From positions 558,001 through 622,000 of the forward strand of contig NZ_CABHMS010000001.1 of the NCBI RefSeq assembly GCF_902167635.1: a stretch of 64,000 bases of DNA, written 5' to 3'. Under the pieces are notes generated by a model that worked only from the letters and a program-made list of their open reading frames with translations, searched no databases and was not told where the DNA came from. A program made the position numbers and the translations under genes. Position 1 is the first letter of the stretch; every line of letters starts with the position of its first letter. Source of the DNA: Chitinophaga vietnamensis. GTDB lineage: Bacteria > Bacteroidota > Bacteroidia > Chitinophagales > Chitinophagaceae. Of this stretch, positions 17,507 to 54,412 are shown one piece after another.

Positions 17507-17509
17507 ATA

Positions 17510-17655
17510 ATTAATAATTAAAAAGCCCTTGAAGCGCTCAAAGCGCTTCAAGGGCTTCTAGCCTTGTATGCTTCAAATGTTTTCAATAGTTTGCCTATTG
17601 CGGTTTCCGGCCCTTGAAGCGCTCAAAGCGCTTCAAGGGCTTTTTAATTATTAAT
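17510..17655. terminator. Double hairpin nested in a larger inverted repeat
   Basis: Two nearly identical hairpins occur here. 17524-17556 has a 15-bp perfect stem with loop CAA; 17610-17640 has a 14-bp perfect stem with the same loop. An AT flank before the first (ATTAATAATTAAAA) is the reverse complement of the flank after the second, so the left arm of one can also pair with the right arm of the other. It terminates sprA; the last T-rich part runs into the promoter of the next gene. Confidence 0.85.
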
Positions 17656-17668
17656 TTGTTTTTTCTCC

Positions 17669-21611: not shown

Positions 21612-21694
21612 GAATTTCTGATTTTTGAATTTTCGTATTTGAACATCATCTTTACAAACCAGCCAAATACGAAAATTCAAAAATCAAGAAATTC
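21612..21694. repeat. Inverted repeat acting as bidirectional terminator
   Basis: Arms 21612-21641 and 21664-21694 are complementary over 30 bases apart from a single inserted base; the loop is 22 bases. AT-rich motif GAATTTTCGTATTTG. It lies between the BNR lipoprotein gene and the convergent 59-codon gene. Confidence 0.8.
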
Positions 21695-33488: not shown

Positions 33489-33495
33489 ATTTCTT

Positions 33496-33559
33496 GATTT
33501 ACGGATTTCTTGATTTGTGACGTACCTCCATTCCCCACAAATCCATAAATCCGTAAATC
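33496..33559. repeat. Inverted repeat between convergent genes (ATTTACGGATTT type)
   Basis: 24-base arms 33496-33519 and 33536-33559 differ at about two positions. GATTTACGGATTT is shared with the repeat at 2113-2230. It is flanked by further partial copies of the module and fills the gap between the phosphatase and PorE-like genes. Confidence 0.75.
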
Positions 33560-33577
33560 AACGAAATCCGTAAATCC

Positions 33578-39405: not shown

Positions 39406-40695
39406 ATGAAGAATCTGCCTCTGGACCCGCAGCTGTTCATCAAGAACCGCGAGCGTTTTGTGGCCAAAATGCAGCCGCAGTCAATAGCCATTATCAATTC
39501 AAACGATGAACTGCCCACCAATGGCGACGCATTGTACAAGTTCAAACAGAACTCGGACCTGTACTGGCTTACAGGCATCGACCAGGAAGATACCATGGTG
39601 ATCCTGTATCCGGACAATCCCGATCCAAAATACCGGGAAGTACTGGTACTGGTACGTCCTAACGAACTGAAAGAAAAATGGGATGGCCACCGCCTCCGCA
39701 AAGATGAAGCCTATGCCGTTTCCGGTATGGCTACCGTTGTATGGCTCGATGCCCTCGATGCGCTGCTCCAGCAATGGATCAACGAAGCCACCAACATCTA
39801 TCTCAACAGTAACGAGAACAACCGCAAAGCCAACCTGGTACCGGTACGCGACTACCGTTATGCACAGGAGCTGAAGCTGCGTTACCCGCTGCACAACTAC
39901 CTCCGCGCCGCCACCATCTTCAAAGAACTGCGCGCCGTGAAAACACCGGAGGAAATAAAAGTAATGCAGACGGCGATGGACATTACTGAAAAAGCTTTCC
40001 GCCGCCTGCTCAAATTCATCAAACCAGGCGTCTGGGAACATGAAATACACGCAGAGATTTTGCACGAGTTCCTGCGCAACCGCTCTGGCGGCGAGGCTTA
40101 TGGCTCTATCATCGCTTCCGGCGACCGCGCGCGTACGCTGCACTACGTATCCAATAACCAGGAATGTAAAGATGGAGAACTGATATTGATGGACTTCGGC
40201 GCGGAATACGGCGGCTACAATGCTGACCTTACCCGTACCGTACCTGTTAACGGCAAGTTCAGCGCCCGCCAGCGCCAGGTATATGATGCCTGCCTGCACC
40301 TGCATAACTATGCCAAATCCATCCTGCGCCCGGGTATCAACATCGCCAAATATCACGATATGGTGGGCGATGAAGCCAGCAAGGAATTTGTGAAGCTCGG
40401 CCTCATCACCGAAGCGGACATCAAAAATGAAGATCCGGAAAACCGCGCCTACCGCAAATACCTGTATCATGGCATCTCCCACCATCTTGGTGTGGATGTA
40501 CATGATCTCGGTCCTTCTTTCCACCGCCCCATCCCTGAAGGCGCTGTAATGACCATCGAACCGGGCATCTACATTGAAGAAGAACACTTGGGTGTGCGTA
40601 TCGAAAACAACATCTGGCTCACTGCCGCCGGCAATGTAGACCTGATGAAGAACATCCCTGTCACCGCGGATGAGATAGAAGCGCTCATGAAATAA
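39406..40695 (+). CDS. pepP: Xaa-Pro aminopeptidase
   Basis: A 429-residue cytoplasmic metallopeptidase that removes N-terminal residues preceding proline. It has an aminopeptidase-P N-terminal domain (about 1-170) and a pita-bread C-terminal domain with metal ligands in MDFGAEYGGYNADLTRT (two Asp), HHLGVDVHD (His), TIEPGIYIE (Glu) and GVRIENN (Glu). The ATG of MKNLPLDPQLF is chosen; 27 in-frame codons upstream lie across the promoter box. Its stop codon is inside the left end of a perfect 90-bp palindrome. Confidence 0.94.
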   Translation: MKNLPLDPQLFIKNRERFVAKMQPQSIAIINSNDELPTNGDALYKFKQNSDLYWLTGIDQEDTMVILYPDNPDPKYREVLVLVRPNELKEKWDGHRLRKDEAYAVSGMATVVWLDALDALLQQWINEATNIYLNSNENNRKANLVPVRDYRYAQELKLRYPLHNYLRAATIFKELRAVKTPEEIKVMQTAMDITEKAFRRLLKFIKPGVWEHEIHAEILHEFLRNRSGGEAYGSIIASGDRARTLHYVSNNQECKDGELILMDFGAEYGGYNADLTRTVPVNGKFSARQRQVYDACLHLHNYAKSILRPGINIAKYHDMVGDEASKEFVKLGLITEADIKNEDPENRAYRKYLYHGISHHLGVDVHDLGPSFHRPIPEGAVMTIEPGIYIEEEHLGVRIENNIWLTAAGNVDLMKNIPVTADEIEALMK

Positions 40696-40780
40696 TTACG
40701 AATTACGAATTAAGAATTACGGCCCGCGTAGCAGATCTGCTACGCGGGCCGTAATTCTTAATTCGTAATTCGTAATTATT
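40691..40780. repeat. Perfect 90-bp palindrome
   Basis: 45 bases (40691-40735) followed immediately by their exact reverse complement (40736-40780), with no loop and no mismatch; the centre is AGATCT. The outer part is built of AATTACGAATTAAGAATTACGG units, the inner part is GC-rich. It includes the stop codon of the upstream gene and ends 38 bases before the pssA start. Confidence 0.95.
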
Positions 40781-40818
40781 TTCAACTATTTTGCGTTCTT
40801 AGATCACAAATAAAACGG

Positions 40819-45705: not shown

Positions 45706-45732
45706 AAAGACGAATTACGAACCTTATTGTTG

Positions 45733-45820
45733 TATAAATCTTTCGCCCCTACGGGGCGGTATATTGGTAGCAGGCATTGCATCTACCAACATATCGCCCC
45801 GTAGGGGCGAAAGATTTATA
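45733..45820. repeat. Inverted repeat with CGCCCCTACGGGGCG core
   Basis: 38-base arms 45733-45770 and 45783-45820 pair with two mismatches around a 12-base loop. Each arm itself contains the small palindrome CGCCCCTACGGGGCG, so alternative foldings exist. It lies between the convergent M1 peptidase and DinB genes. Confidence 0.85.
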
Positions 45821-45839
45821 TAACACCGCTAGTGTGAAA

Positions 45840-51839: not shown

Positions 51840-52919
51840 ATGACTAAAATAGACTGGTATATTTTACGCAAGCTGATAGGCACTTTCATCTACTCGTTGA
51901 TGATCTTCCTGCTCATCTCTGTGGTGATTGATATCACGGAGAAGGTGGACGATTTCATGAAGAATCACTTGTCGCTGCGTGAGATCGTAGTAGATTACTA
52001 CTTCGGCTTTATCCCGCATATCCTGGCTTTACTCTTCCCGCTGTTCATATTTCTTTCTGTTATATTTTTTACGTCCAAGATGGCGTACCGTTCGGAGATC
52101 ATCGCCATCCTCGCTGCCGGCGTGAGTTTCCGCCGTTTCCTGCGTCCGTACTGGTATGGCGCGCTGCTCTTCGGCGCGGTGCTGTGGCTGGCCAACTATT
52201 GGGTGGTGCCTAATGCGAACCGTATCCGCACTTCATTTGAAAACAAATACCTGCACAGCCATGATGCGCAAACATCGCAGTTCGACCGTACCACGCGCAT
52301 CGACAGTTTCACGTATGTGACCTTTGGCACTTACGATCCGAATTATATGAGCGGCAGCGGCTTTGTGCTGGAACGTGTGCAGGGCCAGCAACTGAAGATG
52401 AAGCTGAAGGCCGATCGTGTAACCTGGGATTCTGTGGCGAAGGTATGGCGGCTGGATTATGTGTCTGTCCGCCGCATGGATAGTTTGAAAGAATCCTGGA
52501 GCAGCCGTCAGGACTCGATGTTGAAGATACCGTTGGTTCCCAAAGACCTAGTAGAAGAAAAGAACCTGCAGGAGGCAATGACCACGCCGGATTTGCGCCG
52601 CTATATCAAGCGCGAAGCTATCCGCGGGGCCGAAGGCCTTAATACCTATTGGGTGGAATATTATCGCCGTACCGCTGCTGCTGCGGCAGTAGTGGTGCTA
52701 ACGCTGATTGGCGGCATCATTGCGGCCAAGAAGGTGAGAGGCGGCAGTGGCTTGCACCTGGCTCTGGGCATTGTGATCAGCGCGAGCTATATCATTGCGC
52801 TGCAATTTGCTACCGTATTTTCTGTAAAGGCCGACCTGAATCCCTTGCTGGCCGTGTGGATACCGAACTTTATTTTTGGCGGACTGGCATTTTGGTTATA
52901 CCGGCGTGCGCCGAAATGA
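51840..52919 (+). CDS. LptF/LptG-family permease
   Basis: A 359-residue inner-membrane protein of the YjgP/YjgQ family, part of the ABC exporter that extracts lipopolysaccharide. N-terminal LRKLIGTFIYSLMIFLLISVVIDITEKV, helices around residues 55-75 and 95-120, a periplasmic domain (about 125-275) and three C-terminal helices. Which of LptF or LptG it corresponds to cannot be decided. Its TGA stop is the first codon of a 64-bp hairpin arm. Confidence 0.9.
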   Translation: MTKIDWYILRKLIGTFIYSLMIFLLISVVIDITEKVDDFMKNHLSLREIVVDYYFGFIPHILALLFPLFIFLSVIFFTSKMAYRSEIIAILAAGVSFRRFLRPYWYGALLFGAVLWLANYWVVPNANRIRTSFENKYLHSHDAQTSQFDRTTRIDSFTYVTFGTYDPNYMSGSGFVLERVQGQQLKMKLKADRVTWDSVAKVWRLDYVSVRRMDSLKESWSSRQDSMLKIPLVPKDLVEEKNLQEAMTTPDLRRYIKREAIRGAEGLNTYWVEYYRRTAAAAAVVVLTLIGGIIAAKKVRGGSGLHLALGIVISASYIIALQFATVFSVKADLNPLLAVWIPNFIFGGLAFWLYRRAPK

Positions 52920-53050
52920 TTTGATAAAAATATCGATAATTACGAATTGCGAATTAAGAATTACGGCTTTATGGGGAGATTATGTGATCTCCCCATAAAG
53001 CCGTAATTCTTAATTCGCAATTCGTAATTATCGATATTTTTATCAAATCA
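52917..53050. repeat. 64-bp-arm inverted repeat spanning stop codon to stop codon
   Basis: Arms 52917-52980 and 52987-53050 are exact reverse complements over 64 bases with a 6-base loop (TATGTG). The left arm begins with the TGA stop of the permease gene; the right arm ends with the complement of the TGA stop of the oxidoreductase gene. Its AATTACGAATTGCGAATTAAGA core matches the 90-bp palindrome at 40691. Confidence 0.95.
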
Positions 53051-54412
53051 CAACGTAAATACTTTCCCTCCAACCATCACTTCCTGCGTTTGCTCATCAA
53101 ACGTGGCTTTCATGCCGGTGCGGTAGGCCGCATTTCCCATGATCAATGCGATAGAATGCGAATAGGCTGCTTCAATGGGTGCGTTGGGCTGCTTACGGTC
53201 ACGCACACACGACATCCAGTTGCGAACGTGTGCGTTCGTCAGCGCATCACCGCCGGTATTGGCGCTGGTGTTGGCTGCGGCGGCGTTGCTGAGCGTGATG
53301 CTCGGCAGCAGGTTGGCGTGCATGCCCATTTCTTTGGCTTCTCCTTCTGTAAGGCCGCCAGTGGGGCTGATCGTGTTGGTAGACATATCGATCGTACCGC
53401 CATTAGAGTAATATACTTCTTTGGTGCCGCCGGCCGAGTTATGAAAACGGCTGCTGTACATCACCTGGAAACCGCTGCTGGGGTCATTTTCCGGGCCATA
53501 GTCGAAAACGGCGGTGAGGGTATCGGCGTTTTTGCGACCATCTTTCCACATATAGATGCCACCGTTGGCTACCGCGCTGCGCGGGTGTTTCAGGCCGCTG
53601 AACCAGTGTACGGTATCGATCTGGTGCGTCATCCACTGACCAAAAATGCCGGAGGAGTAAGGCCAGAAAAGACGGAACTCCAGGTATTTACGTGGATCCC
53701 AGGTATCCTGCGGACGCCCTGCCAGAAAGCGTTTCCAGTCGGTGTCAGATTCGCGGATGCTCTTTACAAGGTCCGGTCGGCGCCAGCGTCCCGGCTGGTT
53801 TACGTTCCAGGTCATTTCCACCATGGTGATAGGGCCGAACTTGCCCTGCTGGATAAAATCGGCGGCGGCATGATAGCTCGGGCCGCTGCGGCGCTGCGTA
53901 CCTACCTGCATGATGCGGCCGGATTGCTTCACTGCTTTGAGCGCATTCCTGGCTTCTTCCATTGTTTCTGCGAAAGGCTTTTCGCTGTATACATCGCAAT
54001 TGTGTTTCACTGCCTCGATGGTATGGTAGGCATGCTGAAAATCGGCCGAGGCAATGAATACGGCATCGAGATGTTTGATCTTGTATAACTCATCGTTATT
54101 CACGCAGGCCTGTACATCGTGTCCTGTCTTCTGTTGCAGGAATGCTTTTCCTTCTTCTCTTCTGCGGTTCCAGATATCGGATACCGCTATCAGGTCGAAA
54201 TTGAGTTCCTTGTTATTGTTGAAAAAAGCCGGCATCAGCGCCTGGCGGGCGCGGTCGGAGAAGCCCACGAGGCCTACGTTTACGCGGTCGTTAGCGCCCA
54301 TGATGCGTGCATAGCTGCTGGCCGGCATGCCCATCGCGCTCAGGGTGATGCCTGCTCCTGCCAGCAGAGATTGTTGCAGGAATTCCCGCCTTGTTTTTTT
54401 TGATTCAGACAT
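53048..54412 (-). CDS. Exported Gfo/Idh/MocA-family oxidoreductase
   Basis: A 454-residue NAD(P)-dependent sugar dehydrogenase-like enzyme with a Tat-type signal (KKTRREFLQQSLLAGAG), so it is exported folded with cofactor. Rossmann motif VGLVGFSDRARQAL, the EKPFAETMEEA motif and the C-terminal domain with HQIDTVHWFSG fit the family. It is followed by a secreted sugar isomerase/epimerase-like gene in the same orientation upstream-downstream order, so the pair probably acts on a sugar in the periplasm (inference). Confidence 0.9.
   Translation of the reverse strand: MSESKKTRREFLQQSLLAGAGITLSAMGMPASSYARIMGANDRVNVGLVGFSDRARQALMPAFFNNNKELNFDLIAVSDIWNRRREEGKAFLQQKTGHDVQACVNNDELYKIKHLDAVFIASADFQHAYHTIEAVKHNCDVYSEKPFAETMEEARNALKAVKQSGRIMQVGTQRRSGPSYHAAADFIQQGKFGPITMVEMTWNVNQPGRWRRPDLVKSIRESDTDWKRFLAGRPQDTWDPRKYLEFRLFWPYSSGIFGQWMTHQIDTVHWFSGLKHPRSAVANGGIYMWKDGRKNADTLTAVFDYGPENDPSSGFQVMYSSRFHNSAGGTKEVYYSNGGTIDMSTNTISPTGGLTEGEAKEMGMHANLLPSITLSNAAAANTSANTGGDALTNAHVRNWMSCVRDRKQPNAPIEAAYSHSIALIMGNAAYRTGMKATFDEQTQEVMVGGKVFTL

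Follow-up and report, generated by a model that had tools for sequence, protein, structure and literature searches.

The window, the whole 64,000 nt stretch of Chitinophaga vietnamensis DNA analysed here, contains an LptF/LptG-type permease gene and a facing GFO/IDH/MocA-type oxidoreductase gene. The entire interval between the two, both TGA stop codons included, is a single palindrome. The features are listed below, with positions counted from the first letter of the window.

51840–52919, + strand: LptF/LptG-type permease gene (Pfam LptF_LptG, E 1.6e-65), stop codon TGA at 52917–52919
52917–52980, + strand: left arm of the hairpin, 64 nt, its first codon being the TGA of the LptF/LptG gene
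52917–52937, + strand: outer 21 nt of the left arm (stop codon and flank), with an exact mirror at 53030–53050
52938–52966, + strand: left copy of the 29-mer dispersed heptad repeat unit AATTACGAATTGCGAATTAAGAATTACGG
52967–53000, no strand assigned: core and loop (CTTTATGGGGAGAT ... ATCTCCCCATAAAG), almost common to repeat copy L002 and within a terminator-like match on both strands
52981–52986, no strand assigned: loop (TATGTG), 6 nt
52987–53050, − strand: right arm, 64 nt, its last 3 nt being the complement of the oxidoreductase TGA
53001–53029, − strand: inverted right copy of the 29-mer AATTACGAATTGCGAATTAAGAATTACGG
53030–53050, − strand: outer 21 nt of the right arm, mirror of 52917–52937
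53048–54412, − strand: GFO/IDH/MocA-type oxidoreductase gene (GFO_IDH_MocA, E 2.8e-16), stop codon TGA at 53048–53050
40690–40781, no strand assigned: second member of the heptad family in the window, a perfect 92 bp palindrome without a loop that overlaps the end of its left gene by 6 nt

The hairpin (52917–53050, 134 bp in all) has 64 bp arms that pair at 64 of 64 positions around the 6 nt loop, and its ends read TGATTT...AAATCA. The first-pass annotation had described perfect arms running from stop codon to stop codon, and this description is exact. No hairpin with arms of at least 18 bp and a loop of at most 60 nt arose in three replicates of a 464 kb sample of this genome randomised at the dinucleotide level. 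RNA folding of a 251 nt stretch at the hairpin gave −126.2 kcal/mol (z = −17.3 against shuffled sequences). The hairpin is therefore far beyond chance. The annotation had also judged symmetry extending into both stop codons to be unlikely by chance, which holds for the hairpin itself, whereas the exact ends at the stops are less special because long hairpins of this genome usually end about 6 nt or less from stop codons.

The 29-mer is part of a dispersed family. BLAST against the genome produced at least 108 matches (40 of 66 candidates scored), and the pattern AATTACGAATTRMGAATT has 94 matches, overlapping ones counted, against none for the reversed control. The copies have an arm AATTACG(A/G)ATTACGAATTAAGAATTACGG, followed by a core, of which there are a few types, and by the mirrored arm; they measure 48–180 bp as scored, and the repeats of this genome are built of periodic units of 7–9 nt. 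The 35 copies with a paired 29-mer were analysed, after removal of L027, L031, L035 and L038 (one-armed or without a hairpin) and of L011 (the same place as L012). The exact 23-mer GRATTACGAATTAAGAATTACGG occurs in one of 294 genomes of the taxonomic family, five congeners among them, and that one is the present genome. Within the genus, 20 of 60 genomes, this one included, contain a shorter heptad pattern, with a maximum of 258 matches in G331. A named collection, from which records of this genome may be absent, has the 29-mer in two contigs whose labels assign them to metagenome-assembled genomes of Saprospiraceae and Sphingobacteriaceae.

The relation between hairpins and gene ends was surveyed in 20 spaced stretches of this genome (400 kb) together with the window, and in 400 kb from each of the congeners G322, G336 and G301. 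Genes were called with a simple hexamer-based gene finder, without annotation, and hairpins with arms of at least 18 bp were listed. Arms of at least 30 bp are present in 14 hairpins of the own-genome sample, 13 of G322, two of G336 and none of G301; 16 of these 29 long hairpins are free of mismatches. The distance from a facing gene 3′ end to the end of a long arm is at most 6 nt in 35 of 49 cases (median 1 nt), compared with six of 43 for arms of 18–22 bp (Fisher p 2e-8) and four of 22 for arms of 23–29 bp. With the window excluded, the proportions for the long and the 18–22 bp arms are 31/43 and 6/42. None of nine gene 5′ ends lies within 6 nt of a long arm. The annotation had proposed a survey of whether arm ends are random relative to stop codons, and in the four-genome samples they are not.

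The long hairpins separate convergent genes in 20 cases, tandem genes in nine and divergent genes in none. In the tandem arrangement, after one hairpin overlapping a called gene had been dropped, all eight remaining cases are no more than 6 nt from the upstream stop (random expectation 1.07). Both stops of a convergent pair lie within 6 nt in five of ten cases in this genome, four of eight in G322 and neither of two in G336. Over both sides of the 20 convergent junctions the summed gaps have a median of 1.5 nt. The arm ends fall between −19 and +22 nt from the stop in 45 of 49 cases; for nine 3′ ends the distance exceeds 12 nt, with values of 64, 107, 138 and 437 nt among them. Of the 20 long hairpins between convergent genes in the four genomes sampled, the focal one alone is placed exactly at −3 on both sides, a single instance from a distribution that centres on stops. 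The annotation had raised an element that targets stop codons; strict targeting is unsupported, given this scatter and the identity of the stops, which are the same on both sides in eight of 13 pairs against 5.7 expected from stop usage. That difference is not significant, and a shared stop codon was also rejected as a signature of copying.

Several kinds of repeat make up the long hairpins: heptads (AATTACG), octads (GATTTACG/GATTTTTT) and units of the kinds ACCAGGATT, TATTTTGA and AGCAAAGC. The octad pattern GATTTACGGATTT alone has 355 matches in this genome and none for its reversed control. Long hairpins that end at stops probably serve neighbouring genes as common end signals, and slips in copying when the DNA is replicated would maintain their symmetry. 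The median length of a junction with and without a long palindrome is 138.5 versus 42.5 bp in the own-genome sample and 121 versus 47 bp in G322. Further hairpins in the window, at 2138–2220, 21619–21686, 33494–33561 and 45728–45825, are of other repeat types (GATTTACGGATTT octads and the CGCCCCTACGGGGCG type), and those beginning at 2138, 21619 and 45728 sit between convergent genes.

One alternative is a mobile palindromic element of the MITE or REP kind, with precise insertion at stop codons or terminators and with stop codons of its own. The near-identical dispersed heptad and octad copies, the position of heptad-family copies at stops, the strong difference in repeat content between species and the greater length of palindromic junctions all favour insertion. 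However, stop abutment is common to several repeat types, so that no single element explains it. Simple insertion would moreover leave the old intergenic DNA alongside, yet the summed gaps are close to nil, and no flanking duplication was noticed by eye in the 12 nt flanks of the copies. The outer 21 bp of the focal hairpin were found at no other copy among the 40 of 66 candidates scored. A search of the genome for Y1_Tnp identified one gene, which exceeds the cut-off of the IS200 model and falls below that of the RAYT model, and its 3.3 kb locus contains none of the six repeat motifs listed. An origin by insertion is considered unlikely.

REP sequences, which form GTAG- and CGTC-tagged families, are the nearest known class in that they too are dispersed, multi-copy, intergenic, palindromic and species-specific. 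They are reported to measure 20–40 bp (PMC3733652), whereas the present repeats have arms of up to 64–70 bp and reach 134 bp at the focal site. REP ends bear GTAG or CGTC; the ends here are untagged (TGATTT...AAATCA at the focal site, AATTACG in the heptad family), and GTAG occurs inside one core type, at its centre (GGTAGATCTACC) and not at the ends. REPs are associated with RAYT genes, but no RAYT gene was found in this genome; with the one Y1 gene found being of IS200 type and the repeats absent from its locus, a RAYT link is unsupported. Arms that end at stops and units with a period of 7–9 nt are further differences. The repeats are thus dispersed extragenic palindromes that differ from REPs in end tag, size and RAYT link. 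The Y1 gene itself (L124, G000:C4 222211–222555, G000 being the present genome) adjoins CGCCCCGCTGGGGCG hairpins, not heptad or octad repeats.

Comparison of the two arms within each copy provides evidence on how the symmetry arose. The arms of the 35 paired 29-mers mismatch at 15 of 1015 positions, and 21 cells carry a variant that is identical on both arms: A to G at position 8 in ten copies, position 12 in four and position 15 in two, together with single-copy variants at positions 6, 14 and 16 and two kinds at position 21. Some mirrored variants, such as that at position 8, may have been inherited as subfamilies, and the mirrored singletons are stronger evidence than position 8 that the arms change together. 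Over all pairs of copies, mirroring is common but incomplete (575 of 1070 site differences mirrored, 495 not). Near-perfect arms with mirrored changes are what quasipalindrome correction produces; mirrored variants could also be attained through selection for pairing.

At the focal site the symmetry runs 21 bp beyond the repeat (TGATTTGATAAAAATATCGAT); elsewhere among the 35 copies it extends by 10 bp at most, and in 11 of them not at all. In the BLAST search no other place among the 40 of 66 candidates scored matches the outermost six bases at either end of the focal hairpin, the E-value limit being out of reach for a short flank by itself. Matches entering the outer 21 bp have a lower whole-match identity than the nearest copy. 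This flank was found only at the focal site and its mirror is errorless; of all single observations it speaks most strongly for a symmetry that arose at the locus itself. It points to inverted copying in situ by template switching, bounded by the coding sequences. The inverted duplication or gene conversion put forward by the annotation can be retained for these outer 21 bp, which are mirrored together with the stop and without another copy found, but not for the inner two thirds of the arm, which is dispersed repeat. A duplicated gene end as the whole origin was rejected, since 29 bp of each arm belong to that repeat. The focal flank TTTGATAA resembles the gene end at copy L002.

The stop codons of the flanking genes were compared with those of 29 relatives. 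The LptF/LptG gene ends in TGA in 22 of the 28 relatives parsed (one left out), whereas the oxidoreductase gene ends in TAA in 19, TGA in five and TAG in one of the 25 parsed (four left out). The last residues of both proteins resemble those in relatives. The oxidoreductase TGA may be a copy of the permease TGA, and the stop usage fits a permease-side flank copied onto the oxidoreductase side, although for the stop codon alone chance would give the same result in about one case in five (5/25). The junction occurs in none of the 53 other genomes of the genus with strong matches to both genes, which lie on one contig in 21 genomes, at least 491 kb apart, and on separate contigs in the rest. The genomes sampled therefore offer no direct empty site for the focal junction. 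As the two genes are not neighbours in any of the 53, the symmetry is probably no older than the junction itself.

Two conserved convergent gene pairs, at copies L017 and L022, could be followed through 21 and 23 genomes, respectively, with both gene ends resolved and the present genome included. At the first junction nine of 30 loci were incomplete and were left out, and at the second seven of 30 were left out for more than 700 bp between the genes or odd orientation; a third junction, matched mainly on its left gene, was not used. Hairpins were scored here with mismatches and long loops allowed (up to 122 nt at locus L190) and so differ from those of the survey. The best stem measures 12–26 bp in 32 of the 44 loci, mostly with spacers. 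Stems of at least 30 bp, some of them imperfect with long loops, occur at seven loci of the L017 junction and five of the L022 junction. At least one stop lies within 6 nt in all 12 long-stem loci and in three of the 32 with shorter stems, the present genome being counted. By eye the long stems are of several sequence types, which suggests that the same junctions were converted repeatedly and independently and that the gene-end hairpin at one junction can apparently be replaced more than once by different repeat types.

Long-stem junctions have a median length of 143 bp and the others 85 bp (12 versus 32 loci). In the present genome the L017 junction is 81 bp (ordinary range 69–277 bp, median 95 bp) and the L022 junction is 134 bp, in the upper part of the ordinary range (37–437 bp, median 80 bp). 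Because palindromic junctions are longer, their growth includes added sequence and mirroring alone is insufficient, which moves weight slightly from symmetrisation in place toward insertion. No clean empty site was seen at either of the two conserved junctions.

The preference for gene 3′ ends could also reflect plain selection for very strong bidirectional terminators or 3′-exonuclease barriers close to the stop, working through ordinary point mutations. The arrangement of the 29 long hairpins between convergent or tandem but never divergent genes agrees with such selection, as do reports that describe inverted repeats following stop codons as a recognised feature of terminators (PMC6060812, PMC13155455). 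The stems, however, reach 70 bp and so exceed the ordinary terminators of the genus, as represented by the 32 shorter stems at the conserved junctions, and the mirrored singletons and mirrored locus-specific flank would be hard to reach through single mutations. Plain selection of this kind is considered quite unlikely.

Intrinsic (Rho-independent) bidirectional terminators share with the focal hairpin its position between convergent genes and a core readable on both strands, but the stem here is several times longer, there is almost no spacer between stop and stem, and the T-run is weak or misplaced. A terminator consensus gave five overlapping matches to one stem at the focal core, on both strands (0.8 expected); they are weak, with the tail TCTTAATTCG. 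Octad types have T-runs in the 5′ arm and not after the 3′ arm, unlike the classical terminator. The focal hairpin would, judged from its sequence, act as a bidirectional 3′-end structure for both genes. An Rfam search with it gave 15 matches, mostly to microRNA hairpin models and all below the gathering score. A translational effect is possible by analogy with REPs, since E. coli REPs at most 15 nt from the stop are reported, with reference to earlier work, to stall the terminating ribosome (PMC12306157). A brake of this kind, lowering the expression of both genes, would suit an arm that begins at the stop; as it is an effect and not an origin of symmetry, it is very unlikely to be the explanation sought.

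The reading tentatively preferred, with confidence a little short of even, is that the focal hairpin is a common 3′-end structure of two convergent genes, derived from a dispersed palindromic repeat that was later made perfectly symmetric in place. A repeat copy with heptad arms and core would have come to sit between the genes. Replication stalling at its hairpin would allow the nascent strand to fold back and to copy one arm and its flank onto the opposite side, as in template switching at quasipalindromes. Successive rounds would mirror the non-coding DNA, including the locus-specific flank and a stop codon, and would halt where more copying altered either protein; changes that reach into a coding end would tend not to persist, which leaves the stop codons as the outer limit. 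The transcribed hairpin would terminate or protect both mRNAs. Template switching could in this way explain the symmetric arms, the mirrored variants, the mirrored flank and the abutment at stops without a targeting enzyme, but by itself it leaves the dispersal of the repeat unexplained.

Template switching at quasipalindromes is described as a well-established way in which inverted repeats become more perfect (PMC7202029), and a role in making and maintaining RNA stems has been proposed for it (PMC8794818). Quasipalindrome correction yields perfect inverted repeats and mirrored substitutions, as seen here, but is described for reporter hotspots and RNA genes, whereas its targets in this genome would be entire intergenic regions between convergent genes, at many loci. 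Coding palindromes in nematomorph mitochondria are likewise reported as many long perfect inverted repeats in one lineage, but lie inside animal mitochondrial coding genes and not between convergent genes (PMC6649704). The parts, namely REP-like dispersed palindromes, bidirectional terminators and quasipalindrome correction, are already known; among the papers listed, titles and opening lines of abstracts gave no report of stop-to-stop palindromes in this group.

Persistence of such palindromes might be favoured by the apparent lack of SbcD, a subunit of the SbcCD hairpin nuclease. A search with the SbcD model gave no match in this genome (99.98% complete), while 13 of 14 control genomes matched, a Bacteroides among them, eight over the cut-off. 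Cutting of a 460 bp palindrome by SbcCD is reported to kill E. coli, with palindromes of 20–36 bp as the size limit in vitro (PMC4245961). A broader proposal is that in genomes of the genus that lack SbcCD, template switching continually converts entire intergenic regions between convergent genes into perfect palindromes, which grow to both stops and which it seeds with lineage-specific 7–9 nt periodic repeats, with coding sequence as the sole brake on their growth; this extension is regarded as rather doubtful. Long perfect palindromes as a common separator of convergent genes are natural material on palindrome formation, symmetry and the limits set by coding sequence, and the link between palindromes and a missing hairpin nuclease is approachable by comparing species within one genus.

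Fold-back products can form during library preparation, which raises the question of a chimera from assembly or amplification. The same architecture is nevertheless present at many loci, also in the single-contig congener G322, and both flanking genes end as in relatives, which makes an artefact extremely improbable.

Several minor observations concern the architecture of the repeats. In the listed pairs of this genome, AATTACG or GATTTACG units read from the outside inward on both sides. A one-strand tandem run of AATTACG heptads at G332:C3 541428–541537, with a mirrored arm absent among the matches listed, is a possible expansion intermediate. The window also contains a composite hairpin with CCCTTGAAGCGC modules (17509–17656), and the same or a similar sequence lies within the innermost part of copies L020, L022 and L034, which are thus nested palindromes. 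Copies L036 and L037 (G000:C7 100844 and 23903) are reverse complements of each other in the flanks shown and in the lengths of neighbouring ORFs, suggesting inverted duplication of a larger region.
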